A DNA stretch of 64,000 nucleotides from Adlercreutzia sp. ZJ176 (GCF_011038975.1 NZ_JAAKEC010000003.1:62001-126000), one strand, 5' to 3'; counted from the first letter of the stretch, positions 1,832 through 21,800 are shown. The notes: a model not told the origin generated them from the letters alone. Made by a program: numbers and translations.

Positions 1832-2098
1832 GCGCGGCTTGCACGGCCTGCGCGGCCCCCCGTGCGATGCCGCCTCCCGTGATGTCACCTGACGCAACCC
1901 TCCGCCTTCCGCTCATCCGAAGCCCTGTCGTACCGTGCCGATGGTAGCACAAAGCGGGGGCGTGCGCTCCAGGCGCACGCCCCCGCCCTTGCCAGCGAAG
2001 TCATCGAAGGGGGCCGCTCGCACCCGCGCTCAAGTCGTAAGCCGCGAGCCGCAAGCTGCAAGCGCGGGCCGCAGGCTGCGGGCCGAGCGCTCGACGCG

Positions 2099-2434
2099 TC
2101 AGGCCGAGAAGATGGCCACGTGCTTGCCCTGCGCCTCCTGCGCCAGGTCAGCGAGCGCGCCGATGGCAAGCGCACCTGCGGGGCAGCCCCTCACGCACAG
2201 CGGGTCGGGGTCGACGGCGTAGCAGGCAGCGCATTTGTCCAGCTCAGGCGCTACCAGATGGTACTGGCGCAGCTTGCCGTCAACCAGGTAGGGCTCGCGG
2301 CGCACCACGCGCATCCAATCCTCGTCGTACGGATAGCGGTGCGTCTCGCGGCAAGCCGCCTCGCAGCCGAAGCAGCCCAGGCAGTCGTCGAGGTTGACCA
2401 TCATGGCGATGTTGGATCCGGCAACGCTCTTCAT
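2099..2434 (-). CDS. Small ferredoxin-type subunit of the adjacent molybdoenzyme
   Basis: The protein has 111 residues and two [4Fe-4S] motifs: CLGCFGCEAACRE near residue 18, and CAACY followed by CVRGCPAG near residue 70. It presumably passes electrons to the molybdopterin subunit encoded just upstream. The stop codon of that gene and this start overlap by one base (TAATG), so the two are translationally coupled. It is shorter than the DmsB/NrfC type with four clusters and has no signal peptide, so it should act in the cytoplasm. Small two-cluster partners of this kind accompany some acetylene-hydratase-like and catechol-dehydroxylase-like enzymes. Confidence 0.8.
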   Translation of the reverse strand: MKSVAGSNIAMMVNLDDCLGCFGCEAACRETHRYPYDEDWMRVVRREPYLVDGKLRQYHLVAPELDKCAACYAVDPDPLCVRGCPAGALAIGALADLAQEAQGKHVAIFSA

Positions 2435-4614: not shown

Positions 4615-4768
4615 GCTTCCCCCTTCCGCGTTGTGGACTACTCCCCCTATTATGGAGGGGCGCGAGGCGCAGGGCATAGAACCGAATGGTTGCCGCGCCC
4701 TGCAACAAACCGCTGCTGCGACGCATGGTAGAATGAGGTCATCAGGCACGTCGACCACGGGGGATCTC
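4615..4768. promoter_or_regulatory. Divergent promoter region between the molybdoenzyme and the LysR gene
   Basis: This 154-base region separates two divergent starts. On the + strand an extended -10 element (TGGTAGAAT, TAGAAT at 4729-4734) lies 35 bases before the LysR start. Imperfect dyads are present: CCCCT-N7-AGGGG near 4640-4656, and GCAGGGC paired with GCCCTGC around 4669-4702. These are plausible LysR contact sites, but no single best T-N11-A box stands out. Confidence 0.45.
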
Positions 4769-5740
4769 ATGCACATCGACGGATTCCGCTACTTCATCGC
4801 CCTGAGCCAGGCGGGGTCCTTCAACCGCGCCGCCGAGGAGCTGTTCATCTCGCAACAGGGACTCAACCGCGCCATAACCTCGCTTGAGAACGAGCTGGGA
4901 GCCAAGCTCGTCACACGGAGCCGCAAGGGCGCGCGCCTCACGCCACAAGGCGAGGCGTTCCTCGCGCACGCACGCGTGATCGTGAGCGAATACGATGCGC
5001 TGACCGCCGAGATCGGCGACAGCCTGCTTGACGAAGGCGAGGCCGCGAGCCCCCTGACGCTGGTCACCACATCGTACCTGTCTCAACTTGGACTTGCGCC
5101 CATCCGCGGGACGCAGCTGGCCAAGCGCGCCCAGACGCGCGAAATGCTGCTGAACCGCCTGCTCGAGCGCTTGGAAGCCGGCGCGTCTGACGAGCTGTAC
5201 CTCGTGGACCTGTTTCCCGACACCATGGCGAAGCTCGCACGCAGCGGCGCGCTCGCCTTCGAGCCTTTGTTCTCCAGCACGCTCGGCGTGATCTGCCACG
5301 AGAGCTTCCCCTTGCAGCCCCGCGGGCCCGTGCACCGCGCCGATTTGGCGAAGGTGCCCATGGCCTACAACTGCGACAGCGCCGTCGACCGGTTCGTGAG
5401 CCGCATGTTCGCCGACGCACCGCTGACCAACGTACGCCTGACCTCGACGAACGGCACCTCGCTCATCGAGTACGTGGGAACGGGCGAGGTGATGAGCCTG
5501 TTCGACTCCTACGCGTATCACGTCGGCATGCGCAGCAGCGAGTTTCGCGCGCTGCATCTGCGCTTCACGCCGCTCGCCCACGAGGAGGCCGTCACGCGCG
5601 TGGGGTTCCTCTACCGCACCGACGCGCCTCCCTCGCCGCGCGAGCGCCGCCTGATCCGCGAGGCGAAGCGGTGCTTCGAGGCGGAGAACGCCGACTACCT
5701 TCGAGACCGCCGCCTGACCTGCGTGAGCCCGCTGGGGTGA
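4769..5740 (+). CDS. LysR-family transcriptional regulator
   Basis: The protein has 323 residues. Residues 1-60 form the winged helix typical of LysR proteins (MHIDGFRYFIALSQAGSFNRAA, ISQQGLNRAITSLENELG, then LTPQGEAFLAHA). A periplasmic-binding-like effector domain follows from about residue 95, more divergent than usual. ATG 4769 was chosen because it begins exactly at the conserved domain start; the reading frame extends far upstream, antisense to the molybdoenzyme. Its divergent position next to that gene is the classic arrangement for a LysR activator responding to the substrate of the operon. The effector is unknown. Confidence 0.88.
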   Translation: MHIDGFRYFIALSQAGSFNRAAEELFISQQGLNRAITSLENELGAKLVTRSRKGARLTPQGEAFLAHARVIVSEYDALTAEIGDSLLDEGEAASPLTLVTTSYLSQLGLAPIRGTQLAKRAQTREMLLNRLLERLEAGASDELYLVDLFPDTMAKLARSGALAFEPLFSSTLGVICHESFPLQPRGPVHRADLAKVPMAYNCDSAVDRFVSRMFADAPLTNVRLTSTNGTSLIEYVGTGEVMSLFDSYAYHVGMRSSEFRALHLRFTPLAHEEAVTRVGFLYRTDAPPSPRERRLIREAKRCFEAENADYLRDRRLTCVSPLG

Positions 5741-5852
5741 CGTGCGAGCTGGCTGGCCGAGGCTCGACGCGAAACAGGCGAAACGCCCGACTGACGACAC
5801 ACGGATGCTCCAGAATGCGGCTTAGATGCGAGGTGGAGACGCGCTGGAAACG

Positions 5853-6374
5853 CTAGCGCGTTGGCGGCTTGGGAGCTGCGGGAGCTGCGAGAGCCGTTGG
5901 CGCTGCGGGAGCTGCGGGAGCCGTTGGCGCTGCAGCCTCGCCCTTGCCGTCGAGGATGGCGAGCGCCTCGAGGTAGCGCGCGCGGCGCTTCATGTCCACC
6001 GCGGTGAGGCGGCGCTTCAGGCGCTTGGGGTCGAGGTTGTGCTCGAGGTCGGCGCGCTTCACCTTGACGGCCACGGGGTTCTTCCGCACCCCGCGCACGT
6101 AGTCCAGATAGTCCACGCGCTCGTCATGCGTGAGCAGCTCGACCGCCGCGATCACGCTCTCGGGCATGCCTGCCGCGCGCAGGTCTTCGGCCGTGAAGCC
6201 GGAGTCCTCGAGCACGTCGTGCAGAAGCGCCACGCACGTCTCCTCTTCGGTGTCCATAGCCTCCGCCACGTGCAGCGGATGGTTGATGTAGGGCTCGCCC
6301 GCCTTGTCGAGCTGCCCCTCGTGCGCGCGCCGGGCAATCCCCGCCGCAGCCGCCGTCAATGCCGTGCTTATCAT
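5853..6374 (-). CDS. Small HD-domain hydrolase (RelA/SpoT HD-like)
   Basis: The protein has 173 residues. Residues 1-135 show the HD phosphohydrolase pattern of SpoT/MESH1-type enzymes: RRAHEGQLDKAGEPYINHPLHVAE, then LLHDVLEDSG with the metal-binding HD and ED, and RADLEHNLD as the distal ligand region. No synthetase domain is present. The last 30 residues are an Ala/Pro repeat (APAAP), produced by a degenerate tandem repeat at the 3' end of the gene. Such stand-alone HD proteins may degrade (p)ppGpp or other nucleotides; the substrate here is unproven. The gene is monocistronic, with the AT-rich start of the defence region upstream. Confidence 0.75.
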   Translation of the reverse strand: MISTALTAAAAGIARRAHEGQLDKAGEPYINHPLHVAEAMDTEEETCVALLHDVLEDSGFTAEDLRAAGMPESVIAAVELLTHDERVDYLDYVRGVRKNPVAVKVKRADLEHNLDPKRLKRRLTAVDMKRRARYLEALAILDGKGEAAAPTAPAAPAAPTALAAPAAPKPPTR

Positions 6375-6613
6375 AGACCGAGCTCCTTCCTGCCTTTTCC
6401 CTTGATGGTAGCACGATGAGGTTTTCTTGGTTTCCGTATTGAAATAAGAACATATGTTTTATATAATTGTGGTAACATCAATTTCGGTTGGAACAATCCT
6501 AACCTCACGGGACAGCCTCCTCTTCGAAAAGCGGTGATGTCCTATGTTGCTTCCCTTTTAATAGCATTTTCATACCTCAGTTATATTGAATCAGTATATT
6601 GGAGGAGCGTATA

Positions 6614-6883
6614 ATGCTATTCGTGTTCGATCCGAAGAAGAACGCCACCAACATCGAGAAGCACGGCATGAGCTTCCTTGAGGCACAAGCACTGTGGAAA
6701 GACGATGATGCGATCCGCTTACCGGCAAAGGATCGGGGCGAACCGCGCTATCTGGTCGTCGGCATGATCAGCGGCAAGCATTGGACCGCCATCGCAACCA
6801 ATCGGGGAGACGCCGTGAGGATCATATCCGTTCGTCGGTCACATGAAGAGGAGGTCAGGCTTTATGAGCGCCGTAAACGTTAA
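6614..6883 (+). CDS. brnT: BrnT-family toxin (ribonuclease)
   Basis: The protein has 89 residues. It has the BrnT pattern: FDPKKNATNIEKHGMSFLEA, then the turn near PRYLVVGM, and a C-terminal IISVRRSHEEEVRLYERR. BrnT proteins are RelE-like mRNA-cleaving toxins neutralised by BrnA. The start at ATG 6614 has GGAGG 8 nt upstream; a TTG at 6599 would overlap that ribosome-binding site and was rejected. The antitoxin gene begins inside the last codons of this one (20-base overlap). It sits at the left edge of the low-GC defence region, a common place for toxin-antitoxin genes. Confidence 0.85.
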   Translation: MLFVFDPKKNATNIEKHGMSFLEAQALWKDDDAIRLPAKDRGEPRYLVVGMISGKHWTAIATNRGDAVRIISVRRSHEEEVRLYERRKR

Positions 6884-7112
6884 CACTGCAAACTTAGAAG
6901 GACTCTTCGACGAGGGCGCGGACGTGCTCGACTACTTCGACACCGCAGCAATCGAGCACTTGAACTGCGAGGTGAAGCGCGTCAACGTCGACTTTCCGCA
7001 ATGGGTCGTCAACGAGCTTGACAAAGAGGCCGCGCGCATCGGCGTAGGTCGGCAAGCCATCATCAAGACGTGGATCGTAGAGCGCCTTGACTCCATGGGA
7101 AAGCCCGCCTAG
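6864..7112 (+). CDS. brnA: BrnA-family antitoxin
   Basis: The protein has 82 residues. An acidic N-terminal toxin-binding part (FDEGADVLDYFD) precedes a ribbon-helix-helix DNA-binding module (VKRVNVDFPQWVV, then EAARIGVGRQAIIKTWIVERL). This is the standard BrnA layout. ATG 6864 follows GGAGGTC and overlaps the end of brnT, so the two are co-translated. BrnA usually represses its own operon; a near-direct repeat (agttatattgaat / cagtatattgg) just upstream of brnT, about 6578-6603, could be the operator, but this is a weak guess. Confidence 0.85.
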   Translation: MSAVNVNTANLEGLFDEGADVLDYFDTAAIEHLNCEVKRVNVDFPQWVVNELDKEAARIGVGRQAIIKTWIVERLDSMGKPA

Positions 7113-7187
7113 CAAGCATGCAGGAGGCAAAACCGGAAAGCGAATGGAGTGGGCAATCGGCCAAGCAGAATAGCGCAAAGCCGACGT

Positions 7188-8918
7188 CTACGACTCAATT
7201 GCCCCAAGCGCTTTGCAGAGACGCTTCACAGGATTATTTCGCGCCAAAACGCCCAGTCGCTCCAATACATCTATGCAACCGTCATCACCCATGCTCGCCG
7301 CTATGCGCAGCTCATGTTTCGCGCGAGAGGAAGCCGTGTAGAAAGCGAGACCAGGCTCAGTTCCGTACTCTGTCTCCGGAGGAAGCCACAGACGCTCGTC
7401 GACATCAATGAGGATGACAGCCTGAGCTTCCATTCCTTTGAATTGTCTATGTGTGTATACCTTCACGCCAGTGTTTTTCCAGCGAAACGTCTTGCTCTTC
7501 CTGCTGAAGCAGCGATCAAAGCGAGACTTATCAATGGTCGAGCATGTCAAGACAACGATGTCTTCCAGTCCAGACCGTACCAACGCGTCTATCTGCTCAT
7601 CCACGAAAGACTCGAGGTTAGACACGTCAGTTGATACACGCATAAGAGGCGGTCTGCCCGTCTTCGTTCGACGCTCCTCACTCGGAACGAATTCCTCTCT
7701 GAGAGATCGCAACGAGCATCTGGCAATACTTTCAGTGTTGCGGCAGTTCACATAGAGGGTAAGCTTGCAGTCGGCTTCATTGATAAATTCCGGCATGTTC
7801 GTACCTTGGACGAACTGCCGCCTGTCGTAGAACATATAGAGCGTGGCGTCCTTACTTCTCACCACGTCGAGCAAGTAGCTTAAAAACCCCGCCTCTTCGA
7901 TGTCTTTGAGCCCAAAGTCTTGTCCTTCGTCTATGACAACGTGGTCGTAGACGAATCGCTCGGGATGATCGCTCAACATCTCGCTGAGGACATAGTAGTC
8001 CGGCACGGGCGTATCACAGAAACGACAGGCGAAGCTGGCGATAGTCCGCACCTCGATGCGCGGCACCTTTGCGCATCGGCGTTTAATGTCCTCCGCAATA
8101 AGCGCATTGAAGCACAGAAACAAGACCTTACCGCTCCGCGCTGCTTGCTTTGCGCGCTCTATGGCGATTAGCGTCTTGCCTGTACCGGCAGCACCGGCGA
8201 TTACCGCAATCTTCTGGTCCTGCAGAAATCCGAGCACACGCGCCTGCGAATCGAGCAGGCGCGCAAAGACGAACTCGCTGTAACCGTAATCCATCATGCC
8301 CGTTGGGACGATGTTGAAGGTTGGACAAAGAACCTTATCGAGAATCAACCCGACCTCTTCGTCAGACAGACGCGTGACGATGTCACCCTCGTCCCTGACC
8401 CTGAGGGAGAAAACCCTGTTGATAGGACGCTGCGGATCACCCAGATCAGACCGACTGAAAGTCAACCCTCTGCATGAGTTCATATCATAGCGAAGATCAT
8501 CAAGATCACATGACGACAGACTCGGAAACCACACGGCGTGAACGAACTTACATCGCTTCTTCAGATGACTCAAGCCCATCTCATCGAAGCGGTCAGATAG
8601 CATCCACTTGTTCTGCTCAGCCTGATAATATGGGCCCCGGTGCTTCATGGGCCTGCCGTCGGCGTACACCCACTCACCGCCATCGCATCTGACCCGACCT
8701 GCCTTCACCTCAATGACAAGAATCCCGAGCTTTCTGTGAAACACGACGAAGTCAGCCTCCGACTCCTCCACCTTGTTGTTTTTCACCCGCGACTGCTTAA
8801 GCGAGTGGATGACGAGATACTCGTCATCAAGACCCCTCGCGAGAGCCTCGTAGATCTCGCCCTCCCTGCTTCTCTCATCGAATTCACCGGGACCGAAGCT
8901 CGGTATCATGCGCGCCAT
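7188..8918 (-). CDS. NERD-nuclease / superfamily 1 helicase fusion
   Basis: The protein has 576 residues. The N-terminal 120 residues form a NERD-type nuclease (PD-(D/E)XK fold: ESEADFVVF, then GILVIEVKAG with the E-x-K pair). A UvrD-like helicase follows: Walker A GAAGTGKT near residue 241, VVIDEGQDFG near 331, and a C-terminal motif around TASSRAKHELRIA. It is the last gene of the four-gene minus-strand operon and starts 12 bases after the helicase gene stop. Start at ATG 8918, with GAGAAGGGC upstream; Met4 is an alternative. Such fusions recur in phage-defence loci. Role inferred: nucleic acid unwinding and cleavage. Confidence 0.8.
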   Translation of the reverse strand: MARMIPSFGPGEFDERSREGEIYEALARGLDDEYLVIHSLKQSRVKNNKVEESEADFVVFHRKLGILVIEVKAGRVRCDGGEWVYADGRPMKHRGPYYQAEQNKWMLSDRFDEMGLSHLKKRCKFVHAVWFPSLSSCDLDDLRYDMNSCRGLTFSRSDLGDPQRPINRVFSLRVRDEGDIVTRLSDEEVGLILDKVLCPTFNIVPTGMMDYGYSEFVFARLLDSQARVLGFLQDQKIAVIAGAAGTGKTLIAIERAKQAARSGKVLFLCFNALIAEDIKRRCAKVPRIEVRTIASFACRFCDTPVPDYYVLSEMLSDHPERFVYDHVVIDEGQDFGLKDIEEAGFLSYLLDVVRSKDATLYMFYDRRQFVQGTNMPEFINEADCKLTLYVNCRNTESIARCSLRSLREEFVPSEERRTKTGRPPLMRVSTDVSNLESFVDEQIDALVRSGLEDIVVLTCSTIDKSRFDRCFSRKSKTFRWKNTGVKVYTHRQFKGMEAQAVILIDVDERLWLPPETEYGTEPGLAFYTASSRAKHELRIAASMGDDGCIDVLERLGVLARNNPVKRLCKALGAIES

Positions 8919-8930
8919 GGCCAGCCCTTC

Positions 8931-11900
8931 TCACAAGCTCGTGATTATTTCTTCGGCAGTACACTCCCCCGCAATGAACACCTTCCACCCGCAGCCTTGG
9001 CTCCATCCTTCGCCGAGTTCCTCGTCGAAACTGCGCGCGTCGTCCTCACTGAGCACCATCACCGCAGCATCAGCCCACGCGAGAGAAGCAAAAGCGGACT
9101 TCCCAGAGCCATCGCCCACCTCAATGTCAACACCTGGCACCTCAGTCTCCCTATCACCGATCTCGCCGAGCTTCATTGCAAGCGAAGCCCACTTGTCACT
9201 CGAAGCCGGACGAATAGACCTCTCACAAGCCTCGCGGAAACTGCAGGACCCCCAGTCTGCTCCGCCCTCAATTACGCGAAGCGGCTCCCGCGCTTCCGCA
9301 GGAGTGCTGATCTCAACGCACGCACACCCCCGTTCAACGGCAGGAAGGATGCCCTCGATGAGCTCTTTAGCATATCGGCGGCGCAACGAGGCATGATGCG
9401 CTTGGTTGTAGTAGCTGCGCAGACAGTTATAGCACGACGTATCCTCGTCACAGCAGCTTTGCGACACTTTCCGCAAAGCTGCCTGGAGCGAGGAGATAAC
9501 AGCTTCCTTGTCCGTTAGCCTCTTCACCAGACCAGCGCCGCCGGGAACGTCATCGTACATAAGAATGTCGTAACTATCGGTCTTCAAGCTCATCTCAAGA
9601 AGCGCGCTCACATTGGTCCGCTCAATCTCAAGCGCCTCACAGACGCCTTCCAGCATCGCGTACATGAACGACAGCGCCTTGGGCTTCGCCCTCTCGACCG
9701 ACAAGGACAGCGCCGGTATGCGGATGCGCGCAACGTCAGTTTGGAACCGATGGCCAAGATAGGCGCGATCCAGCGAAGCGTTCTTGCAGTCGAAGCCGCG
9801 ACAGTCCTTGTGTTTTTCTTCCTTCTTGGGAACCCCGGAGAACGGATCGGCCACTTCCCCGTACCCGCATTCCTTGCAGAGGAAAAAGGATGAGCGGTTC
9901 ATCACAAGCAACACGTCATTTGAGGATGTCTCAACTGACAGCACCCCCTCGATAGCAAGAGTTAAGCCTTCCTCGTCGCTCCTCTTGATGTAGGTCACTT
10001 CACCCGCATAGGATCGCTTTGGCTTGAGAAGAGCATCTTTTTTCGTCTCGCTGGCTTTAAACCCAAACACCGGCTCATAGAAGTAGTTTTTCTTGCCCTT
10101 CTTCATCTCGGTACCACAATGCTGACACGTGTTCAAGGACCCAGCAGTCGGAGAAATGCTCACCTTCTCGCATTTTGGACACGTGCAGTAATACTGGCGC
10201 GGCAGCTTTGCTATCCCCCCTCTTGGCAAGGAGACATATTGCGACACATATTTCTTCTTGTCGACAACGATCTCCGAGCCAGGAGCATATTCAGATATGG
10301 CTATCTTCAGATCGCGACTAAGCTTGTCATCCTGACCCCTAGCTGGTCTGCCCTTATCGTAAACGACAAGGCCGACCACGTCGATGGGGAAACCGTACTT
10401 CGGAATAACACAGTATTCCGAAAGCGCGTTGATGACCTTCCGATCATGAAGAGAATCAATCTGCGACTTGAAACACGCCGCCAAGTTATAGTCCTTCTCG
10501 CGCGCCGCACGCTTCTGGGCAGCATCATATTCCTTGTCAAGCTGGAGGATTGAGGCCTCAAAATGTTGGAGCTTCTCGTCGTTGCCCTTCACCTCATCAA
10601 ACCACCTCAAATTGTGAAACGAAGCATACTCCCGCTCTGGAATTACTCTCTTGTCCAAATAGTCGACAAGCGCCGGAGGCTTCTCGCTAAGGTAGTGCTT
10701 AAACGCGTCAATGCCCCCGTCAAAGACCAAGCTGTGCACCGACTCGAAATAACCCGGATTCTCGCGAAAGAAGAACCCCAGGCACGCCGCCATCAAGTGG
10801 CGTACGATGATCTTCCGATTGAGAACATCGAAATAGGGTGGCTTTATGGCGCCTGATATCATCTTCTCTGGTGCAGCGAAGTAGGTATAGTCATGGGACA
10901 CTGCGCCGCAGTACGTCAGAACAAACGCTGAGCTGTCAGCCCTTCTCCCGGCACGTCCAGCGCGCTGAACATAGTTCGCGGGTGTCGGCGGAACATTGCG
11001 CAGAAACACTGTCTCCAAGCTGCCAATGTCAATGCCCATCTCAAAAGTCGTTGAGCAGCTGAGTACGTTGATGCGCTTGCTCTTGAAGTCGTTCTGGTAC
11101 CGCTTCGCCGTTTCCTTGTCGATCTGCGCGGTATGCTCCTGCACCACGAGCCGCTCAATGCGCTTCGTCTTGTACTGATTCCGGTAGTAGCTCTCCGCAA
11201 GCTCAACATCGGGATCAATGAGCTTCAAAGTGCCGTCGCACTTGTTCGCAACGCACACATCATGCAGGTTATGCGGGGTAATGCGCCCACATTTCGAACA
11301 CCGGTAGTAACTCATATTGCGATAGTTCTTCAAGACGTATTGTTTGGCCGCAATGCGGTAGCCATCGCTTTTTGCATCGCGAGTAAAGAGCCCACTTTCT
11401 ACCCCAAGATTAAATAGCATCTCAAGAATATTGCACGCCTCATCGGAGTTGCATCCGAATACCCGCTCAACATACCAAACGAGCAGGTTTTCCTTACCCT
11501 TGACGGGAAGGAAACTACGCACGCCCTTCACGGCCTTCGATCCTTTGAGCCTGACGGCGCTGAGTGCATCGCGATATGGCAGATGCTCCGCTCGCTCTTC
11601 AAATGAGAGGCCCGCCATGCTCGTATCGACGGAGAACGTTCTATAAACCGCTTGAAGAATCCTCGCCAAATCTTCTTTGGTGGTGAAGCCATACTGGCCA
11701 AAGACCTCTGAAACCGACTCGTCATCCACCTCATCGAGGATGGGAGACAGGTTGACCTCAAAGTGATACAAGCCGTTTCCCTCGCAGCTGTTCTGTCCGT
11801 CGATCTTCAGCAACTCAGACAGAATGGCTATCCACGCGTTTTTGAAAGGAGTGAGGCCGTTGTCGAAGAGGTTGTCGTTCTCTATGAGCGACTGAAGTGT

Positions 11901-14000
11901 CGCCTCAAGCTCCTCAACAGGCATCTCGCGATAGCCATTGTCTTCCAAGACTCGCCAGATAAGTCTCTTTCTTAGGATGCGAGAGTTATTCGCGTCGAAG
12001 TACATCGCGAAGTAGCTTGCCTGTGATCTACTGTCAGAGAACGCGAGAAACTGCTTCACCGCCTGGTTGTTATCCTCGGCTTTGTCTCTCTCGCTCTTTT
12101 TCAAGCTGAGCAAGAGCCTTCGCTTCTTCTTCGTAGACTCCGAGTGGTCCATCGATTCTAAGAGCATCTGAGCGAGAATGGCAGTTGACTCATCTTTGCC
12201 GAGGCTGAGATTCTTGACAACGCCCGCATTACGCGACCGACCACAGCACGGGCACATGCCAATGTTGTTGTGCCTCGTGGCACTCGCATCGTCTTTGCTT
12301 TGCCGGACACGATACGCGACGACCTCATCAGCTTCTGCGCATGTACACCACAATGCCGTAAGGCTATCGGCAGGACGAATTGCTCCACATCTTGAGCAAA
12401 TGACGTGCTTCTCAAGAGACTCGACGTCCACCTCCTGCTCCTCGACAGTCTTTTCTAGCAAGAAATAGTCGACCTTCATATTAGAGTTGTCGCCATAGTT
12501 CTCATAAATATCCACCTCATCGTTTTGAAGCAAATAGACAATCCCGCTGCCGTCTATCTGACACATCCTCCCGATGAGGTACGGCGCGCTGCAATAACGG
12601 CAGTTGCCAACCTCGAACGCCTTGTCTTCTTCAATCTGGTTTGTCTTGATGAGACTAAGCGAGGAGCGTTTGCCTAGGGACACGAAAGCCCCCGCCAAGG
12701 GCCTCGCGAAGGAGTGATACTTCAAGCTAAACAATTCGATCCCATTGCGCTGGGCGATGTTAATCAAGTCGATCAGAGCCGTTATCTGAGCCTCATTCAA
12801 GCTCGGCAGGCATTCGACGACCTCCTGTATGTTCCTGCTTCCCAGCCGCAAAGCATCGTAGACCCGGTAGACGCTCTCATCGCTCGACAGTAGATCATAC
12901 AGGATTCCCCTGAGGTCACGCTCTCCAACGGTGACGCCGAGCCGCAAACCAACATCGCGTATCGCCTCGCGATCGCGGCGCATTGAGATGTAATCATCAC
13001 CTGTGAGGACAAGGGGTGACTGGGGTGTCTTGAAGGGAACCCTCTCGGCAAAGATGATGTCATCTTCACTGAACCGAGAGGATGTGAGCTTGTCCGCGAA
13101 GCTCACGATGCCTTCTTCGCTCGTTCCTTTCTCGCCCAGTGTCGCGCTGCTGAGGATGAATCGTGGCTTCTTCTCGGCCATGGCCGTGAGACGACGCATG
13201 AGATAGGAGATTTCAATGCCAAGCGTGCCGTTATAGGAGTGAGCTTCGTCCAGAACAACGAACTTCCAGTTTGCTAAGCGCTCAGGAGAAAATATCGCAT
13301 AGTCGTTTGGCCTGATTAAGAGATATTCAAGCATCGAGAAGTTCGTGAACAAAAGATGAGGGGGATTGTTTCTTATCTCCTCGCGAGAGAGGATCTCGTT
13401 GGACGGCACCTCCGCGCCCATCCCCCTCTTGTATCTCTCACGATGGCTCTTGCTCGGCTTCTCCGGCGTGTCTCCCGTAAAGAAGCCAAAGGTGATTTGC
13501 GGAAAGGCTCGCACAATCTCGCGCACACGAGAAACCTGGTCGTTTACCAGGGCATTCATAGGATACAGGAACAAAGCACGAATACCCGTCTCCGTGTTTC
13601 CGCCCTCGATTTCACGCATCAGCTCATTGAGGATCGGATAGAGAAACGATTCTGTTTTGCCTGATCCCGTACCTGTCGTGATGATGGCATTTCGACCAGA
13701 GCATATACGGCGAACGCTTTTCTCTTGATGCGCGTAGAGAGGTCGGTCGAGATCCACTCCTTCGAGCGAGAGAAAAAGATCCGACACAATCCCCTCTTCG
13801 ATGAGTCCGCGCAGCGTCTTTCCCCTCTCAAAGGGCAAACCCAAGTCAAGAAACGGGCCCTTAAACAGATCTTCGCTTTCCAGCTGATCCTCAAAGAGCC
13901 TTTGGAGGCGCTCACTACCAAACTTGAATGAGGAGCGGATGTACTCCTTATAATGCTCGTTGATGTAGCGAGAGCGATCAATGGGGCTTCTCTTCTCCAT
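8931..14000 (-). CDS. Large DEAH helicase with DUF1998-type C-terminus (DruE/MrfA-like)
   Basis: The protein has 1689 residues. Superfamily 2 helicase motifs are Walker A TGTGSGKT (about 109-116), DEAH (251-254), SAT (285-287) and QRAGRAGRR (near 1012). Many zinc-binding Cys pairs lie between and after the helicase lobes (CRYCSAPY, CSRCGAIRP, CPCCGRS, CSKCGRIT, CPKCEK with CQHCG, CKECGYG). The C-terminal third carries DVPGGAGL and CYNCLRSYYNQAHH, the DUF1998 signature seen in MrfA and in DruE of Druantia. The size fits DruE. The start at ATG 14000 has AGGAG 7 nt upstream, 10 bases after the preceding gene. DISARM or Dpd helicases are alternatives. Codon use is AT-richer than in flanking genes. 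Confidence 0.8.
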   Translation of the reverse strand: MEKRSPIDRSRYINEHYKEYIRSSFKFGSERLQRLFEDQLESEDLFKGPFLDLGLPFERGKTLRGLIEEGIVSDLFLSLEGVDLDRPLYAHQEKSVRRICSGRNAIITTGTGSGKTESFLYPILNELMREIEGGNTETGIRALFLYPMNALVNDQVSRVREIVRAFPQITFGFFTGDTPEKPSKSHRERYKRGMGAEVPSNEILSREEIRNNPPHLLFTNFSMLEYLLIRPNDYAIFSPERLANWKFVVLDEAHSYNGTLGIEISYLMRRLTAMAEKKPRFILSSATLGEKGTSEEGIVSFADKLTSSRFSEDDIIFAERVPFKTPQSPLVLTGDDYISMRRDREAIRDVGLRLGVTVGERDLRGILYDLLSSDESVYRVYDALRLGSRNIQEVVECLPSLNEAQITALIDLINIAQRNGIELFSLKYHSFARPLAGAFVSLGKRSSLSLIKTNQIEEDKAFEVGNCRYCSAPYLIGRMCQIDGSGIVYLLQNDEVDIYENYGDNSNMKVDYFLLEKTVEEQEVDVESLEKHVICSRCGAIRPADSLTALWCTCAEADEVVAYRVRQSKDDASATRHNNIGMCPCCGRSRNAGVVKNLSLGKDESTAILAQMLLESMDHSESTKKKRRLLLSLKKSERDKAEDNNQAVKQFLAFSDSRSQASYFAMYFDANNSRILRKRLIWRVLEDNGYREMPVEELEATLQSLIENDNLFDNGLTPFKNAWIAILSELLKIDGQNSCEGNGLYHFEVNLSPILDEVDDESVSEVFGQYGFTTKEDLARILQAVYRTFSVDTSMAGLSFEERAEHLPYRDALSAVRLKGSKAVKGVRSFLPVKGKENLLVWYVERVFGCNSDEACNILEMLFNLGVESGLFTRDAKSDGYRIAAKQYVLKNYRNMSYYRCSKCGRITPHNLHDVCVANKCDGTLKLIDPDVELAESYYRNQYKTKRIERLVVQEHTAQIDKETAKRYQNDFKSKRINVLSCSTTFEMGIDIGSLETVFLRNVPPTPANYVQRAGRAGRRADSSAFVLTYCGAVSHDYTYFAAPEKMISGAIKPPYFDVLNRKIIVRHLMAACLGFFFRENPGYFESVHSLVFDGGIDAFKHYLSEKPPALVDYLDKRVIPEREYASFHNLRWFDEVKGNDEKLQHFEASILQLDKEYDAAQKRAAREKDYNLAACFKSQIDSLHDRKVINALSEYCVIPKYGFPIDVVGLVVYDKGRPARGQDDKLSRDLKIAISEYAPGSEIVVDKKKYVSQYVSLPRGGIAKLPRQYYCTCPKCEKVSISPTAGSLNTCQHCGTEMKKGKKNYFYEPVFGFKASETKKDALLKPKRSYAGEVTYIKRSDEEGLTLAIEGVLSVETSSNDVLLVMNRSSFFLCKECGYGEVADPFSGVPKKEEKHKDCRGFDCKNASLDRAYLGHRFQTDVARIRIPALSLSVERAKPKALSFMYAMLEGVCEALEIERTNVSALLEMSLKTDSYDILMYDDVPGGAGLVKRLTDKEAVISSLQAALRKVSQSCCDEDTSCYNCLRSYYNQAHHASLRRRYAKELIEGILPAVERGCACVEISTPAEAREPLRVIEGGADWGSCSFREACERSIRPASSDKWASLAMKLGEIGDRETEVPGVDIEVGDGSGKSAFASLAWADAAVMVLSEDDARSFDEELGEGWSQGCGWKVFIAGECTAEEIITSL

Positions 14001-14010
14001 GGCATATCTC

Positions 14011-15429
14011 CTAATGCTCGGCAGACGTAAAATAGGTAACGACAAACGCGCTCGGGTTCGTTAGCGAATCAAGAACGCCAGTTTCGTCTTTGTCGAGGAG
14101 CAGCCCGTCTCCATCCTTCGTGATAAAGAGCTTCGGGAGCCCATCAGACGCGCAGCCGCAGATCTCAATGTCCACGAGTCCGATGTTTAGCGGATTCTTC
14201 ATCCTTCCCTTTTGACGATAGATGTATCCTACGAATTTGTCGTTGTCGATCTGTCTTTCAAACATGACATAATCATGCTCAAGCAGCGTGCTCCGGGGAA
14301 CGAAATGGTCTCGCCGGTACTGCATGAAATGAGCTGTCTTCAGTCTGAATGCACGACCAGGAAGACCCTCCCAAGAAAAAAATATTCGGGTTACCTCGCA
14401 CATGGTTCTTTCCCTGCCGAGCATCAGCCCACGAGCCCGCTCGACAAATGAGAACGTATACCTCTCGAAAGGCATTACTCCAAGTATGTTGAGCTCCCCT
14501 TCGCTGTCGAGCCGATCGCTCCGATAGAACTCACGGCCCTCACTATCCTTGGCAACGAGAGCAACGTCGCCCTGACCCATATAGCGCCATCCGATACACA
14601 GCTTTCGATTGACGGCATCGAACGCAAAACCGACATCATCTGGCTTCATGCAGCTCTTGTTGCGAACGACGATCCGCCCAACCTGTCGGGAGCCTTTGAC
14701 GGGACGCAACACGACGAAGTCGTTACCGGTCTTATAGGAAAGCAAGCTGCCGATTTCAATCGCCTGATGAAACGAATGAGCTGATCGGCAGCTCAGCTGA
14801 TCGACTAGCCGTCCGCGACCGTCGACAACGTTGATGCCGTCATAGTTCGCATTGTATAATTCCAGCTTTCCCCGGTTAGCAACGTCACCGATCCAAATCT
14901 CCTTGGAGAAGCAGCGCCACGAGCGCTCGTCTATCCGATAGAGATCAAGATCGAGGGCGATCTTGTATGTATACCTTCTTCCACGACTCATAAAGTCGAC
15001 ACGCATCTCGCTGAACCCCTCCAAAGCAATTTCTGCACGAGAGGGAGCGCTGAACAAGGAACTCTTCATTACAACCGACACGAGCCCCTCGTCTTCCATG
15101 CTACCGCTTTGTTTTATACTCAATTCAGGGTCATATACAAACATCTCGGGCAGAAGCTTCTTTTTTGACGAGTCCGATAACTCGAACACGCACAAGTCAT
15201 GCACGCCGGGACTGAGATGTCCCATATCGATAATGTACTTCCTAAATCCTCGGCGCTTTACTACGGTATATTCAAAGTCGTCTAGGCGAAGCGACTTCCC
15301 CGAAATGTTGATCTCGAAGTTCTCGACAGCATCGTCTGACTCGAACACATAAAGGCTCACATCCGTGTAAACCGGTATATTGGCCCCTCCGGACGCCTCA
15401 ACCACACAGGAATCCGCAAGAACGCCCAT
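14011..15429 (-). CDS. Uncharacterised beta-rich protein of the defence operon
   Basis: The protein has 472 residues and is not recognised. The sequence alternates short hydrophobic strands with turns (NIPVYTDVSLYVFESDD, YKIALDLDLYRIDERSWRCFSK, GKLELYNANYDGINVV) and has few predicted long helices, so a multi-domain beta-sandwich or Ig-like protein is likely. It has no signal peptide, no membrane segment and no visible catalytic motif. It lies 14 bases after the TerB-like gene and 10 bases before the large helicase gene, on the same strand, so it is almost certainly co-transcribed. A target-recognition or scaffold role beside the helicase is inference from position only. Confidence 0.7.
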   Translation of the reverse strand: MGVLADSCVVEASGGANIPVYTDVSLYVFESDDAVENFEINISGKSLRLDDFEYTVVKRRGFRKYIIDMGHLSPGVHDLCVFELSDSSKKKLLPEMFVYDPELSIKQSGSMEDEGLVSVVMKSSLFSAPSRAEIALEGFSEMRVDFMSRGRRYTYKIALDLDLYRIDERSWRCFSKEIWIGDVANRGKLELYNANYDGINVVDGRGRLVDQLSCRSAHSFHQAIEIGSLLSYKTGNDFVVLRPVKGSRQVGRIVVRNKSCMKPDDVGFAFDAVNRKLCIGWRYMGQGDVALVAKDSEGREFYRSDRLDSEGELNILGVMPFERYTFSFVERARGLMLGRERTMCEVTRIFFSWEGLPGRAFRLKTAHFMQYRRDHFVPRSTLLEHDYVMFERQIDNDKFVGYIYRQKGRMKNPLNIGLVDIEICGCASDGLPKLFITKDGDGLLLDKDETGVLDSLTNPSAFVVTYFTSAEH

Positions 15430-15443
15430 TATCCCCGGCTTTG

Positions 15444-17192
15444 TTACTTTGACGAAGTGAACACTTCATCGCCAACTGTCAGCGCGTCGCCGATCTTCGC
15501 ATCATAAGTCGCCAAAGCGTAGCCATCGCATTGATAATACGGCTGCAGATCCTTCGTCTCGCCGCGATAGCACACGATGACAGTCCCATCATAATCGGTG
15601 TTGTTCTTCACCTCGTTTCCGTCAAGGTCAAAGACGAGCAGGGGTCTCCGAAGCTTGCATGCGCTATCGAACAGAACGTCCGCTTTTGCCGTAATACGAT
15701 AGCGAACGTTTCCCAGCGGATCGTCGAGGGGAAACTCGTCAATGATTAACCGATAGCCGCCGATAATCGATCTGATTTCCATCGGCACAGGTATAATGCG
15801 ATCATCACCCAGAAGAACACACGCCCCAAGATCCCGATAGTCATAGCAATCCCCGACAAGGTGCTCGGGCGGCGCAAGGTGAACTATGTTCTCCTTTAAT
15901 GTGAAACGCGGCTCCCATCGCGAGCTCCCTGCGAAACGCCCCTTAGCACGCGCTCGACGGGCGTTCTTCCCCGATATCGAAGACGCCCACCTCTCGTACC
16001 CATACCGAAAATAGGGATTATGGGGCCGAACATCGAACCCCCTCATATGACCGTCGATTATCCGAGCCACCATCACGCTCAGAGCTACGGCCTCATCAAG
16101 CGTATCCTCGTTGGCGATGACATCCTTGGTGGAGCGAACGAGCCTGTAGGTCCTCTTCGTAACCTCGACCTCTAGGTCATCCCCGCCATCAAGCAACTTC
16201 TCGTGCAGACCCTCGAAGGCGAACCGAAAATCCTCCTTTGGATCAGCAGAGAGCCTGCAGCCCAAATTCAAATCATAGATGTCGAAAACAAAATCAAAAA
16301 AGGCCGGAAGATAGTACTGCGGCACAATTGCGTTGCGCAAGGCAACGTTGATATACCGGCTCTCGCTGTATTCGCCCTGCTGCGTCTGAAAATGACTCAA
16401 GACGTCTCTGATGAGGCTCTCAACCTTGGCATCCGAGTAATTCTGATAAAGACTCGGATAGGCCTTCTCCACTCCTTCATAAAACGCAGAGTCATATTCG
16501 CAGAGACCGATGAGTACGAGAGATATAAAGACTATCTCCTTGTCCTTCACGATACCGGTAAACGACCTCAACGCAGAATTAAGCTGACGTTCGGCCTCAA
16601 GGTGCACCCTCTCGATCGAGCAATCGCCGTTCAGCGCATTGATGAGGTCAAGCCCTATGAGCTCTCCCCGTCGCACTTTTTTCTTGAGATGCTCAACTGC
16701 ATACCGGTATCTCACATACCTCAACCGCTTGGAGAGGACACTGAACAGCCCCCTTGCCTCATCAGGTGTGTAGACGCCGTCTTCCAAAACAGCGCTTACC
16801 TGCTCCTCGACGAAATCATATGCTTCAATGCCTTTGAGATCTCGACCGTCCTCAAGCCATGCGCGAAGCGCGTGCACCTCTTTTTCATTGACCACGCCAT
16901 CACAAAGTAATCCATCTACTATGCCAGCAAGCTTGAGAAGCCGAGGTTCGACATGGGACAAACTTTCGCAACTCGCGCACGCGAAAAACAGCTCTTCTTT
17001 CTCCTGCTCAGTGAGAAACCCATCCTCCAGAACCTCGTCCACAATCCTGACCAGCTCAACCTCACGCGGCTCGATTGCCACGTCACGATTTCTATCCGCC
17101 CACAAACGAAGCCGCGCGATCTCCTTTTCGTTGATCTCTCGATCCAAGTCGATGCCGTTGATTATTCCCTCAAGCTTTTCGACCTCGTACAT
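15444..17192 (-). CDS. TerB-like helical repeat protein, first gene of the defence operon
   Basis: The protein has 582 residues. The N-terminal 170 residues contain repeats of the TerB-like type: DREINEKEIARLRLWAD, DGFLTEQEKEELF, GIVDGLLCDGVVNEKEVHALRAW, EDGVYTPDEARGLF. These acidic helix-loop units recall those found in tellurite-resistance and BRCT-associated proteins. The central part is helical with no motif I know. The C-terminal 180 residues look beta-rich (VRYRITAKADVLFDS, YDGTVIVCYRGE), rather like the next protein. The start at ATG 17192 has a weak GGA upstream. About 147 AT-rich bases separate it from the DUF2779 gene, enough for its own promoter. Function unknown; a membrane- or metal-linked sensor is one possibility. 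Confidence 0.65.
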   Translation of the reverse strand: MYEVEKLEGIINGIDLDREINEKEIARLRLWADRNRDVAIEPREVELVRIVDEVLEDGFLTEQEKEELFFACASCESLSHVEPRLLKLAGIVDGLLCDGVVNEKEVHALRAWLEDGRDLKGIEAYDFVEEQVSAVLEDGVYTPDEARGLFSVLSKRLRYVRYRYAVEHLKKKVRRGELIGLDLINALNGDCSIERVHLEAERQLNSALRSFTGIVKDKEIVFISLVLIGLCEYDSAFYEGVEKAYPSLYQNYSDAKVESLIRDVLSHFQTQQGEYSESRYINVALRNAIVPQYYLPAFFDFVFDIYDLNLGCRLSADPKEDFRFAFEGLHEKLLDGGDDLEVEVTKRTYRLVRSTKDVIANEDTLDEAVALSVMVARIIDGHMRGFDVRPHNPYFRYGYERWASSISGKNARRARAKGRFAGSSRWEPRFTLKENIVHLAPPEHLVGDCYDYRDLGACVLLGDDRIIPVPMEIRSIIGGYRLIIDEFPLDDPLGNVRYRITAKADVLFDSACKLRRPLLVFDLDGNEVKNNTDYDGTVIVCYRGETKDLQPYYQCDGYALATYDAKIGDALTVGDEVFTSSK

Positions 17193-17339
17193 AATCCGAG
17201 TCCTAACCTAGATATGCAGCCAAGCAAACAGCCCTCCCCATTCATAATGAGTATCTATGTATTTTAAATGAACATTTTCACATAGCATTGCGCAACATAT
17301 TTTCGTAGCACGAAAGGATAGCCCCTTGGAGCTTTGTCG

Positions 17340-18875
17340 CTACGCGACGGCCTCTTGGAGCTTCTGCCAGATGCGCACCATGGCGAGCGTGTCGAGCTCG
17401 CAGTAGCGCAGGAGCGCCTCCCGGGTGCGGGCAGCCTCCTCAGGCGGCATGCGCACCAGGTCGGTGAACGCCGCCGACGCCTGCGCTCCGTTGTGCACGC
17501 CGTCGAGGGCGTGGTAGTCGAGCTCCGGGTCGTCCGGGAAGAGCGCTGGGAGCACGGACTTAATCGAGAACGAGCCGCCCTGCGCCGCCGCGTAGTACGC
17601 CCCGTTGCGGAAGGGGACCATGAGGTCACGCATGTTCTCGCGGATGGCGAGCAGGTGAGCGGCGAGGTCGGGGAACTGGCTGGCGAGGTCCTTGAGCACC
17701 ATGCGCTCGAAGCTCATGTTGTAGGCCACGGTGCGCGCGTCGCGCGGGATGGCGCGCACGAGCGCCTCGGCCACTGCGCGGCGCGGGTCGGTCCCCTCGC
17801 GCGCGAGGAACTCGCGATGCTCGAAGGCGCCCTCCGCGTCGCTCACGACGTGCAGCGAGAACTGCGTGGGGATCTGCTGGTAGGGGCGCACGCCGTCGAA
17901 GGGCGGCACGGCAGGCTGGTACGTCTCGAAGTCGAGGAAGTACAGCGGCGGCGTGAGCTCGGCGAGAAACCTGCGCACGAACGCCACGTCGACAAGCGGG
18001 CTCCTTCCCGTACGATGTGCCTCGATCTGGCGCTGCGGGATCGCCTTGAGGCGCAGGCCCGAGGCCGCCACGTCGTCGAACGTGATGAGCCCCTGGTCGA
18101 CGAGCTTGAACGCCTTGACGAGCCCGTAGCCGCCCAGGTCGAACACGCTCGGATGCGGCACGTAGCGCCAGCACCACCGCCGGTAGCCGCACGGGTAGGG
18201 ACTTGTGCAGTGCGGGCCGATGGAGCAGCAGCCACGTGCGCCGGGCTCCATGCCGAGCGCCTGGGAGAGCGCGCCCGCCTCCCCGGGCTCGGCGGGATCG
18301 TCCGCCACCTCCTTGAGGAAGGCCACGCGCTTTCCCACCTGATCCCGCAAGCCGAGCACCACCTCGGTGCAGTCCTCCACCGTGAAGAGTCCGTGCAGGT
18401 CAAGCTCTCCCTCACGCACGTAAGAGCTGTTCACGTGCATGAGACCAGCGCTCTTCACCGCGTACCCGCACCGGTCCAGCAGCCAGCACTGGTAGGCCAT
18501 GTCATGCAGGTAGATGTCGTGGAGGTGCGTGGAGGACTTCACCTCCACGAGGCGCACGCCATCAGGCTCGTTGAGCAGGATGTCCACCATGCACAGGTTG
18601 CCGTCGCTCTCGAAGGTGGCTTCGCAGATCACGGGCTCGCCCGCCTCCATGAGCTCGCGCGTGAGGCGCGCCATACCCGCGAAGTCGTGCGCGTCGAAGG
18701 GGATCTCCGTGAAGCGGCCGTAGTAGCCCATGGCGAGGTCGCCCACCTCGTTTCCCGTGGCGAGCACAGCTTGGTTCAACACCGTTTCGTCGAACTGCTC
18801 GGGCAGGTGCGCTTCCATCCAGAGCATCTTCGGGCACTGGACGCCGCGCGTGTAGCGGGACTTCGAGAGGTTCAT
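17340..18875 (-). CDS. DUF2779 protein (PD-(D/E)XK nuclease plus RNase H-like module)
   Basis: The protein has 511 residues. The N-terminal half shows a PD-(D/E)XK-like core (CEATFESDG, CMVDILL, VRLVEVKSS) with clustered cysteines (CPKMLW, CCSIGPHC, CGYRRWCW) that may hold an FeS cluster. The C-terminal half begins LYFLDFETYQPAVPPFDG, the DUF2779 signature, and looks like a DEDD/RNase H-fold exonuclease with later acidic residues (ELDTLAMVRIW). Its ATG overlaps the addA stop codon (ATGA, 18872-18875), so it is translated with addBA. This suggests an accessory nuclease in double-strand-break processing; that role is inferred from context only. Confidence 0.75.
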   Translation of the reverse strand: MNLSKSRYTRGVQCPKMLWMEAHLPEQFDETVLNQAVLATGNEVGDLAMGYYGRFTEIPFDAHDFAGMARLTRELMEAGEPVICEATFESDGNLCMVDILLNEPDGVRLVEVKSSTHLHDIYLHDMAYQCWLLDRCGYAVKSAGLMHVNSSYVREGELDLHGLFTVEDCTEVVLGLRDQVGKRVAFLKEVADDPAEPGEAGALSQALGMEPGARGCCSIGPHCTSPYPCGYRRWCWRYVPHPSVFDLGGYGLVKAFKLVDQGLITFDDVAASGLRLKAIPQRQIEAHRTGRSPLVDVAFVRRFLAELTPPLYFLDFETYQPAVPPFDGVRPYQQIPTQFSLHVVSDAEGAFEHREFLAREGTDPRRAVAEALVRAIPRDARTVAYNMSFERMVLKDLASQFPDLAAHLLAIRENMRDLMVPFRNGAYYAAAQGGSFSIKSVLPALFPDDPELDYHALDGVHNGAQASAAFTDLVRMPPEEAARTREALLRYCELDTLAMVRIWQKLQEAVA

Positions 18876-21800
18876 GCATGCTTCCTTATGACGTCTTCGA
18901 GTGCTTCGACGTCCGACGCGTCGAAGCGGTAGGCTGCCACCTGCGGCTGCGCAGGGTTGTATCCGCTGCGGTGCTCCACGCGCACGAAGCACGCCTCAAC
19001 CTCAGAGAGCCCTTCCTTGAGCAGGGCGTACGCGTAGCACTGGGCCTGCAGCTCGTGCTTCGCGCGCACGAACGCGTCCGTCTCGGCCGGCGAGCCGCCC
19101 GTCTTGTAGTCGACGACGAGCGCGCGCCCCGCATCGTCGAGCGCGAGCGCGTCGAGGGCGCCCTCGAGGTAGAGCGGAGGCGCGCCTGCGGGCCCGACCT
19201 CGACTATGAACGGGACCTCGGCGGCGATCTGAGCGCAGCTGCCGAACGCGCGCGCCACGTCGCTTCCCACCCAGAGGTCGAGCGCCTCGTCGAGGCGGCT
19301 TGTCTGGTCGGGGGTGAGGCCTGCGCGCTGCGCCTGCGCGCGCACGACTTCGGGCGCGGGCTTCTCGAGCACGCGCGGCGCCGGGCGAGCCGCCGCCTCG
19401 AGCACCATGCGCTGCGCGAGGCGGTGAAACGCCGTGCCGAGGGCCGTGGCGTCGTCGTCCTCCGCCGCGCAGGCGGCGACGTCCTGCGCGACAGGCGTGG
19501 CGGCGGATGCAGCCGACGCGGGATCGCCCTGCGCAGCAGGCGTGGTGGCGGACAGGGCAGGTGCGGCGGGCGCCTCCCCGAGCTGCGCGGCGCCGCCGAG
19601 CAGCTCCCAGGGCAGCGGGTCGTGCTCGAGCGAGGAGTAGGAGCGCACGTCCTCGCGCCCGAACGCATGGGACGCGGCAGAGGGCATGCGCGGCGCCGGG
19701 CGCTCGGGCACGCGGAAGACCGCGGACCTCGCGCCCTCCTCGCCTACAGAGGTGCCGTCGCCGACAGGCGCGACCGGCGTGCTTCCGGCAACACCCCCGT
19801 CCGCAGCGTCCCCGCCCGCAGGCGCATTCTTGCCGGCGGGAGCGTCCTCGCCCGCAGGTGCGCCTTCCCCACCAGGGGCTTCTCCTCCGTCAGGCGCGGT
19901 GAGATACTCGAGTGCCACGCGGGCGGGCGCGCTGCCCCCGTAGTCGACCATGCTGACCGACCTCTCGGACTCGACGTCCCACCCGAGCGCCGCGTGCAGG
20001 TCGCCGTAGATGCCCGCCTTCTCGTAGCCGTCCTGCGGCTTCGACCCGAACACGCCGCTCAGGAGCAGCGAGCGGCTCGCGCGCGTGAGCGCCACGTAGA
20101 GCAGCCGCTGCGCCTCGGCGAGCGACTGGGAGCGCGCGTAGGCGGAGAGCGCGGCGTAGAGCTCCCCGGGCGTGCGCGCCGCCGCGGCGTCCTCGCAGAG
20201 CGCGTCTTCGCGCTCGAAGCCGCGCAGCTTCGTGATGGCCTTCTCGCACTCCCCCGCGGCCGGCGCGCTTGCGGCGACGTAGGTGCGCTGCCCGACGTTC
20301 TCCACCACGAGCGACGAGCGCGACGCGACGCCCGACCCCAGCTCAGCGATGGCCACGTGCGGGAACTCGAGGCCCTTCGAGGCGTGCACCGTCATGATGC
20401 GCACGAAGTCCGACTCGACCGTGGCGAGCGCGCCGGGCGCCTCCTTCGCGCAGCGCAGGTGGTCGGCGTACGCGAGGCAGACCGACGATGCGCCCGAGCA
20501 CGCGTCCTCGAAGCCGCGCACCAGACTGAGCGCCTTGGCGAGGTTCCCCGCCGCGGCCAGGCCGGGCGCGCCCGCCTCCTCCAGGCGGTCGAGCAGGCCC
20601 GTCTCCGCGAAGAGCCGGCGCAGCGCCTCGGCGACGCCTCCCTTGCGCGCCCGCGCCGCGAACCGCCCGAGATGCTCGCGCGCCATCCCGAGCGCCTGCT
20701 CGTCGGCAGGCGCAAGGCCTGAAACCGCGCCCTCGTGCGCATCGGCGAAGCCGCGCGAAAGCGCGCGCGGGCACGCCTCCCCCGCCTCGTCGCGCGCGGT
20801 GGCGAGCGCGAGCAGCACGTCGTCGGTGAGGGCGAACAGCGGTGAGGTGAGCACGGAGAACAGCGCCGGCTCGTCGCCCCCGTTGACCGCGACGCGCAGC
20901 AGGCTGGCGACGAGCTGGGCCTCCTGCGAGGACGAGAACACCGACCCGCCCGCGATCACGCTCTCGAGGCCGGCGCGGCGCAGCTCGCGCGCGTACACGC
21001 CCGCGTTGCCCATGCTGCCGAGCAGAAGTGCCATGTCGCCTGCATGCGCCCCGCGCTCGCGCAGGCGCGCGAAGTGCTGCGCCACGTGGCGCGCCGCCAC
21101 GACGACCGCCTCGGCCTTCGAGACGCCCCGCGCCTTCGACGTCGAGCCCTTGTAGTGCACGAAGTCGAAGCTGATGCGCGGCTGGTCGGCGAAGACGGGG
21201 TCAGCTGCGGCGTTTACCGCCCCGCGCGGCTCGAGGTGCAGGAACTCGCGCCCGAACACGCGCTGCTGCGCGAACACCACGTCGACGAGCTTGAGCACGT
21301 CGGCGTGGCTGCGGAAGTTGTCCGGCAGCGACACGAACCGCACGTCCGGGCTCTTATGGCGCAGGCTGTCGCGATACGCGAAGAACACGTTCACGTCCGC
21401 CCCGCGGAAGCGGTAGATGCTCTGCTGGGCGTCGCCGACCGTGCACACGTTCGCGAGCCCCGGCGCGGCGAGCGCGCTGATGAGGGCGACCTGCAGCTTG
21501 TCGGTGTCCTGGAACTCGTCGACCATGATGAGCTTGAACTGGCGGCGGTAGCGCTCCGCGAGCGCCGGGCGCGTGACGAGCGCGCGGGCGCACTGCGCGA
21601 GCAGATCGGCGTTGTCGAGCCGCGACGGCCCCTTGAGCCGGGCGAACTCGTCGGATATCAGGCGGGCGAAGCCCACGAGGGCGCGCGCGGCCCGATACGC
21701 GCAGCACGCCTCGGCCTCCTCGCTCAGGCGCGCGTACTCGCTGCGGTAGCTCGCGAAGAAGCCGGCGTCGTCCTTCTTCGCGTGGAACTGGGGCGACGTG

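Follow-up and report, generated by a model that had tools for sequence, protein, structure and literature searches.

A candidate three-component defence operon in Adlercreutzia sp. ZJ176 that pairs a divergent DruE-like helicase with a NERD-SF1 helicase

Among the described anti-phage systems, Druantia type III offers a close comparison for the operon reported here. In Escherichia coli Druantia III-A, DruE loads on 3' single-stranded DNA (ssDNA), and its partner DruH carries Ig-like domains and is likely the sensor (PMC13192584). The Mycobacterium smegmatis type III system (PMC13316683) has a DruH of 1132 aa and a DruE of 1667 aa whose key residues are K119, A292 and A1016, and its trigger is a minor tail protein of the phage. 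Bell et al. described a 'Druantia III-like' branch in which DruE is usually without a nuclease (PMC12458937). Degenerate C-terminal Vsr domains are known on several Druantia and ARMADA helicases, with no role assigned to them. In this work, we analyzed a 64,000-nucleotide stretch of Adlercreutzia sp. ZJ176 (GCF_011038975.1, NZ_JAAKEC010000003.1:62001-126000; hereafter the window, to whose first letter all positions refer) and focused on an operon at 7188-17192. Our preferred reading, to which we give a probability of about 0.6, is that this is an anti-phage system of three components with a Druantia III-B-like core that arrived by lateral transfer, and in which a C-terminal domain (CTD) of the DruE-like helicase would dock a helicase of superfamily 1 (SF1) fused to a NERD nuclease.

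The operon occupies the minus strand and contains four open reading frames (ORFs) with intergenic gaps of 14, 10 and 12 bases; the G+C content of its genes is 0.51-0.54, as compared to 0.648 across the window. These values agree with a sequence-only reading of the same DNA, which had described four same-strand ORFs with small gaps and low G+C. In the order of transcription, the ORFs are:

15444-17192, minus strand: P0004, ORF of 582 aa, N-terminal half of a large sensor-like protein (helical region and first beta domains)
14011-15429, minus strand: P0003, ORF of 472 aa, C-terminal half of the large protein, tandem Ig/FnIII-like beta-sandwiches
8931-14000, minus strand: P0002, 1689 aa from the ATG, DruE-like YprA-family helicase of superfamily 2 (SF2)
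7188-8918, minus strand: P0001, 576 aa, NERD nuclease-SF1 helicase

The sequence-only reading counted four genes, which is correct for ORFs, but the conserved unit comprises three genes, a large helical/Ig-like protein, a DruE-like helicase and a NERD-SF1 helicase, because the first two ORFs, then termed 'TerB-like' and 'beta-rich', are halves of one protein in relatives. Directly upstream of the DruE-like helicase, one uninterrupted ORF that matches both P0004 and P0003 is found in Butyrivibrio (L088, 1069 aa), Lachnospiraceae (L091, 931 aa) and Acetatifactor (L094, 1071 aa). The whole length of P0004 aligns to residues 1-584 of the Butyrivibrio protein (37.6% identity, 1e-133), and P0003 aligns to its residues 592-1053 (3.5e-57). 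The stop of P0004 sits 14 nt ahead of the P0003 ATG, upstream of which the P0003 frame reads VTKPGIMG where relatives have MVKPGIFG; the two halves are therefore one -1 frame step apart:

15430-15470, minus strand: junction of the halves, a -1 frame change that relatives read through (three-frame translation and alignment)

The ribosome-binding site of the P0003 ATG is weak, and those of the other operon genes are stronger. The split may have originated by mutation, by frameshifting, as two translated subunits or as an assembly error.

The DruE/MrfA landmarks earlier recognized in the 1689-aa helicase P0002 were recovered, including Walker A K115, DEAH D251, many zinc pairs and the motif CYNCLRSYYNQ. 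The DEAD, Helicase_C and MZB (39 bits) domains all score above the Pfam cut-offs, and the SF2 motifs of DruE-like helicases are invariant in alignment A2.

9420-9665, minus strand: MZB (MrfA zinc-binding domain, formerly DUF1998) of P0002, PF09369

A search of the window's class with P0002 returned full-length relatives of ~29-33% identity. Upstream of these Coriobacteriia relatives, wherever contig and ORFs permit, the loci read out encode a protein of ~1000-1150 aa, here designated U. In a tree of 46 helicases, obtained by a quick LG run that gave a long-branch warning, the window helicase groups with the Druantia references, not with ARMADA. One side of a branch with SH-aLRT 99 holds the helicases of the window, of Clostridia and of U-type Coriobacteriia, and this clade is sister to, or apart from, the references of Druantia I, III and IV; the window helicase itself groups with Lachnospiraceae (support 100). 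Motif spacing in the clade fits K119-A292-A1016 of M. smegmatis and not type I. Given the published architecture and this spacing, the clade probably corresponds to the Druantia III-B branch of the literature or is its neighbour. As a separate observation, L054-L057 form a divergent clade of YprA-family helicases in Coriobacteriia, preceded in L054 and L055 by a HerA-like gene.

A YprA-family SF2 helicase with an MZB/DUF1998 domain is what the operon shares with Druantia of any type, and the PADLOC DruE profiles match P0002 with 335-582 bits (DruE1 582, DruE3 518 and, the weakest, DruE4 335). By profile, P0002 is a divergent relative of DruE outside types I-IV. The partner genes were compared with the same profiles, and no match to DruA-D, M, F, G, H or L was found for P0003 and P0004 or for their relatives. 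With respect to type I, DruA-D matches are absent from P0001 as well as from P0003 and P0004, and for type II there is no match to DruM, DruF or DruG. In E. coli III-A, too, a YprA-family helicase is preceded by a large sensor-like protein that has Ig-like domains, but P0003, P0004 and their relatives give no match to the DruH profile, which scores the E. coli DruH control at 2539 bits. Moreover, PLD nuclease domains form the C-terminus of the E. coli DruE, whereas P0002 has no Pfam PLD match. Druantia III-B and the actinobacterial type III systems (PMC12458937; MSMEG_1253-1254, PMC13316683) share with the operon a large protein of ~1100 aa directly upstream of a nuclease-free DruE of ~1600-1700 aa; the differences are the third gene, encoding the NERD-SF1 helicase, and the CTD of DruE, both of which belong to the window operon. 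The suggestion of a new subtype or system is therefore borne out in that the partners match no catalogued subtype, but the core is probably of a known kind to which an effector gene has been added.

The two halves of the large protein, P0003 and P0004, have zero Pfam matches and gave no significant match to PADLOC or NCBIfam models, and no PADLOC model recognizes the large proteins of the window or of its relatives. The 'TerB-like' label of P0004 was dropped, since Pfam gave no TerB match at E <= 1. The first ~155 residues instead match a phage protein family of unknown function, and four xDGxxxxxE repeats are visible by eye in this N-terminus:

16728-17183, minus strand: N-terminal helical repeat region, residues 4-155 of P0004, phrog_3989, E=3.8e-27

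For an N-terminus that a defence protein and a phage family have in common, shared origin or mimicry is conceivable. In the structural model of the intact Butyrivibrio protein (pLDDT 78.6, pTM 0.43), helices extend to about residue 430 and are followed by a row of beta-sandwiches that match Ig/FnIII arrays in Foldseek and VIA-align (best VIA Z ~9.7); this search chiefly probes the beta half, to which the Ig/FnIII reading is confined. Close relatives beyond the window's own genome were found neither for P0004 among 398 same-class genomes nor for P0003 and P0004 in plasmids and viral contigs. Homology between U and P0003/P0004 is undetected with single sequences and is backed via intermediates: in profile comparisons, the window and Clostridia large proteins match L101/L103 at 1e-8 and L123 at 3e-6, U matches L123 at 7e-8, and three large proteins from Actinomycetes (L175-177) match L123 at 7.6e-23 and U at 1.8e-8. 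We treat the large proteins encoded ahead of this clade's helicases as one fast-evolving family, which by analogy with DruH may have a sensor role.

P0001 carries a NERD domain above the Pfam cut-off (39 bits) and matches the PADLOC model RTasNERD-Hel with 134 bits; the D..ExK residues of the nuclease are kept throughout alignment A1.

8568-8864, minus strand: NERD nuclease domain of P0001, PF08378, D56, E70 and K72 invariant in alignment A1

Six of the Coriobacteriia DruE-like relatives are followed by a NERD helicase, five of them full-length and 43-51% identical to P0001, the sixth (L041) interrupted by a contig end. A NERD-helicase alignment scan of 84,980 genomes yielded 80 loci, and the order large protein, DruE-like helicase, NERD helicase recurs in Clostridia, Mycoplasmatota and one Anaerolineales genome. 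The operon genes thus do co-occur across genomes, as a three-gene unit. Other close homologues of the NERD helicase are located in DrmAB and Druantia IV operons. The window NERD helicase groups with Coriobacteriia (support 99), in the same clade as an actinobacterial DrmAB-linked copy (L083). Because the DruE-like helicase is closest to Lachnospiraceae while the NERD helicase is closest to Coriobacteriia, the NERD (effector) gene must have been exchanged independently of the DruE core. Two further contexts of NERD helicases were observed. In L108 (10001-17303) and L109-L111 a NERD helicase precedes a gene of ~316-336 aa and, where the locus is complete, a helicase of ~540-552 aa; the L108 copy of this helicase matches DpdF profiles, and the gene after it gives matches to type I restriction enzyme profiles. 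These loci represent another recurrent NERD-helicase operon. A Leisingera plasmid (L166, 13160-14890) has a DUF4338 (DruA-like) gene and a 2094-aa DruE without the tail domain, directly followed by a distant NERD helicase.

The presence of the NERD helicase goes along with an extension of its upstream neighbour. DruE-like proteins beside a close NERD helicase continue for ~140-180 residues beyond the MZB cysteine motif (156 aa in P0002), and the five Coriobacteriia relatives without a NERD helicase for 22-31 residues. Of the Coriobacteriia relatives, which were found via DruE and not via NERD, six have both features (seven including the window) and five have neither. Sister pairs L041/L051 and L046/L052 differ in CTD and NERD helicase at once.

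8931-9368, minus strand: CTD of P0002, degenerate Vsr/PD-(D/E)XK-like, proposed NERD-helicase docking domain (alignment A2, AlphaFold model, VIA-align, CTD profile survey)

The AlphaFold model of the window CTD is an alpha/beta domain (pLDDT 80.6) whose best VIA-align rows are Vsr-like PD-(D/E)XK nucleases (Z <= 5.8); Foldseek gave no match at E <= 0.001, and the CTD has no conserved acidic catalytic motif. On the basis of these rows, the motif pattern and the literature, we call the domain Vsr-like with moderate confidence. A CTD profile was built from 18 DruE-type tails, with DrmB and DruE4 tails kept outside the training set. It matches the C-terminus of DrmB in each of the nine DrmAB-NERD loci, at 2e-10 to 1e-23, as well as both NERD-linked Druantia IV-like DruE proteins (L086, L106); the DrmAB and Druantia IV identities come from PADLOC for representative loci and from ORF lengths, and the DrmB profile cross-matches DruE, probably via shared C-terminal domains. 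Among 79 scored loci, the CTD is present on the gene directly upstream in 25/25 with a close NERD helicase versus 2/54 with a more distant one, where close and distant mean profile E below and above 1e-120, a cut set after the scores were seen, and where the loci share ancestry, so that Fisher values are not to be taken as probabilities. The nine DrmB and two Druantia IV DruE proteins are among these 25; when the DruE clade is left aside, the CTD is found in 11 of 11 loci with a close NERD helicase. Outside the scored loci, the profile is matched by only 2 of 1197 ORFs. These encode DruE-like proteins of viral contigs, each with an SF1 helicase after it, in an ARMADA II-like arrangement. In L112, L121 and L122, MZB-type or helicase proteins (1196-1211 or 662 aa) with marginal CTD matches (E 4e-4 to 0.01) stand before a NERD helicase and possibly represent a fourth scaffold.

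Several described systems resemble this combination in part. Druantia IV (DruL-DruE4, PADLOC) includes the two loci above with the same NERD helicase and DruE CTD, but there DruE belongs to another clade and DruL replaces the large protein; the window has no DruL or DruF match. In the nine DISARM-like DrmA-DrmB loci the NERD helicase comes directly after a CTD-ending DrmB, but helicase and MZB are two proteins there and one here, and no large Ig-like protein was identified in those loci. TALON (PMC12458937) likewise combines a YprA-like helicase with a NERD nuclease (PF08378 here) in an operon, but the four window proteins have no Pfam match to its TPR-CSD or TATA-binding protein, and the window helicase ends in a Vsr-like domain, not in RNase H. 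In ARMADA type II (PMC12458937), a YprA helicase with Vsr-like C-terminal domains is followed by an SF1 (GajB-like) helicase, and a weak CTD match is found in L058/L059 and L071/L072; ARMADA II may rely on a distant form of this pairing. ARMADA needs, however, a BrxHII-like helicase and a PglX-like methylase, neither of which was found among the four window proteins apart from generic helicase-core matches. A literature search combining NERD with Druantia or DISARM, which covered few subscription papers, returned TALON and one review but not the CTD/NERD pairing.

The operon sits in a cassette that can be delimited by comparison with two genomes of the same genus, G226 and G356, and no further long non-overlapping gene was found in it beyond the four ORFs:

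7122-17316, strand not assigned: inserted cassette, absent from G226 and G356 at this site (blastn against the window)

In G226, ~170 bp separate the flank that ends at 7121 from the one that begins at 17317, and this adjacency identifies the ~10.2 kb as an insertion; we read the operon as horizontally acquired. G356 has the site without the operon and without the BrnT/BrnA region. The toxin-antitoxin pair noted beside the operon is real (BrnT/BrnA, 6599-7112), but its DNA is present in G226, which has no operon; the pair is therefore a neighbour, and we rejected it as a component of the system. Likewise, the BrxA-like gene mentioned as adjacent does exist (PF08849, 124.5 bits, 1-246, minus strand), but it is 7 kb away, inside a BREX locus. 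This locus comprises window positions 1-246 on the minus strand and L192, the 19.9 kb that precede the window, with BrxA, BrxB, BrxC, PglX and PglZ. PglX is divided into parts of 855 and 322 aa that flank two genes (237 and 548 aa), a layout that may allow switching or may be inactivating. A second stretch absent from G226 at the same locus, 2011-5904, contains a molybdopterin oxidoreductase gene with 73% identity to its best paralogue in the genome; the site looks like a hotspot. On the other side, beside the insertion, there are a DUF2779 gene (17340-18992) and two large ORFs, 18872-22621 (UvrD-like helicase) and 22618-25563, that look like AddA/AddB, a naming we infer.

A working scheme for the three components can be proposed. 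By analogy with published Druantia work, the large protein (P0004 plus P0003) would sense a phage protein through its Ig/FnIII-like array, and the DruE-like helicase, with no active nuclease of its own, would load onto ssDNA-containing phage DNA, giving anti-phage activity. From genomic comparison, the dead Vsr-like tail would dock the NERD-SF1 helicase, which would cut and unwind the DNA. We give even odds to the broader proposal that the dead tail and the NERD-SF1 helicase form a portable docking pair in at least three YprA-family scaffolds (III-B-like DruE, DISARM-like DrmB and Druantia IV DruE4), where the tail would predict the use of an external nuclease. Several facts weigh against this scheme. 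No significant sequence link joins the large protein to E. coli DruH (weak at best, for U 0.0023 over 95 columns), and we do not claim the large protein as a DruH homologue. The split may leave this particular copy inactive. In L123 of Anaerolineales and in two plasmid DrmAB loci, a distant NERD helicase occurs in the absence of the CTD, and only three phylogenetically independent pairs of the DruE clade back the link of CTD and NERD helicase, all in the same direction but too few for significance.

The same split could mean that the operon is a decayed remnant, its sensor gene inactivated by a frameshift and the remaining genes mere passengers. The end-to-end alignment of the halves with one ORF of relatives, offset by the -1 frame step, would fit such decay, as would the weak ribosome-binding site at the ATG of the downstream half, unlike those of the other genes. 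We nevertheless consider it unlikely: the other ORFs are full length relative to their relatives and no second lesion was seen; the second half begins 14 nt past the stop, which would allow coupled translation into two subunits, and a sequencing error is also possible. It is about equally doubtful that the linkage of CTD and NERD helicase reflects shared descent and gene-order inertia and not physical docking. Several loci are indeed related, and the comparison group with distant NERD helicases is heterogeneous, but the same CTD occurs on DrmB and DruE4, which are different scaffolds, always just ahead of a close NERD helicase; the two sister pairs change both features together; and the NERD gene has changed hands independently of DruE.

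An operon for plasmid or transposon restriction, or for DNA repair, instead of phage defence is improbable. The YprA family does include DNA-repair enzymes (PMC12458937), but in length and profile the window helicase differs from the repair-type YprA/MrfA, in the tree it groups with the Druantia references, its NERD partner has close homologues in DrmAB and Druantia IV operons, and the operon is sporadically distributed and inserted near BREX. Least probable by far is a complete canonical Druantia type I with diverged accessory genes: DruE1 is the top PADLOC match of P0002, but the authentic type I DruE (L006) reaches 1569 bits on the model where P0002 gets 582, the operon has no DruA-D homologue, and the tree separates the two.

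The recurrent pairing of the CTD with a close NERD helicase offers a testable role for the degenerate Vsr domain, namely the recruitment of a separate nuclease-helicase. It also suggests that effectors are interchangeable between DISARM-like and Druantia systems. Recognition of this pattern would make it easier to name systems absent from present catalogues and, for Druantia-like systems with a nuclease-free helicase, to predict which component does the cutting.

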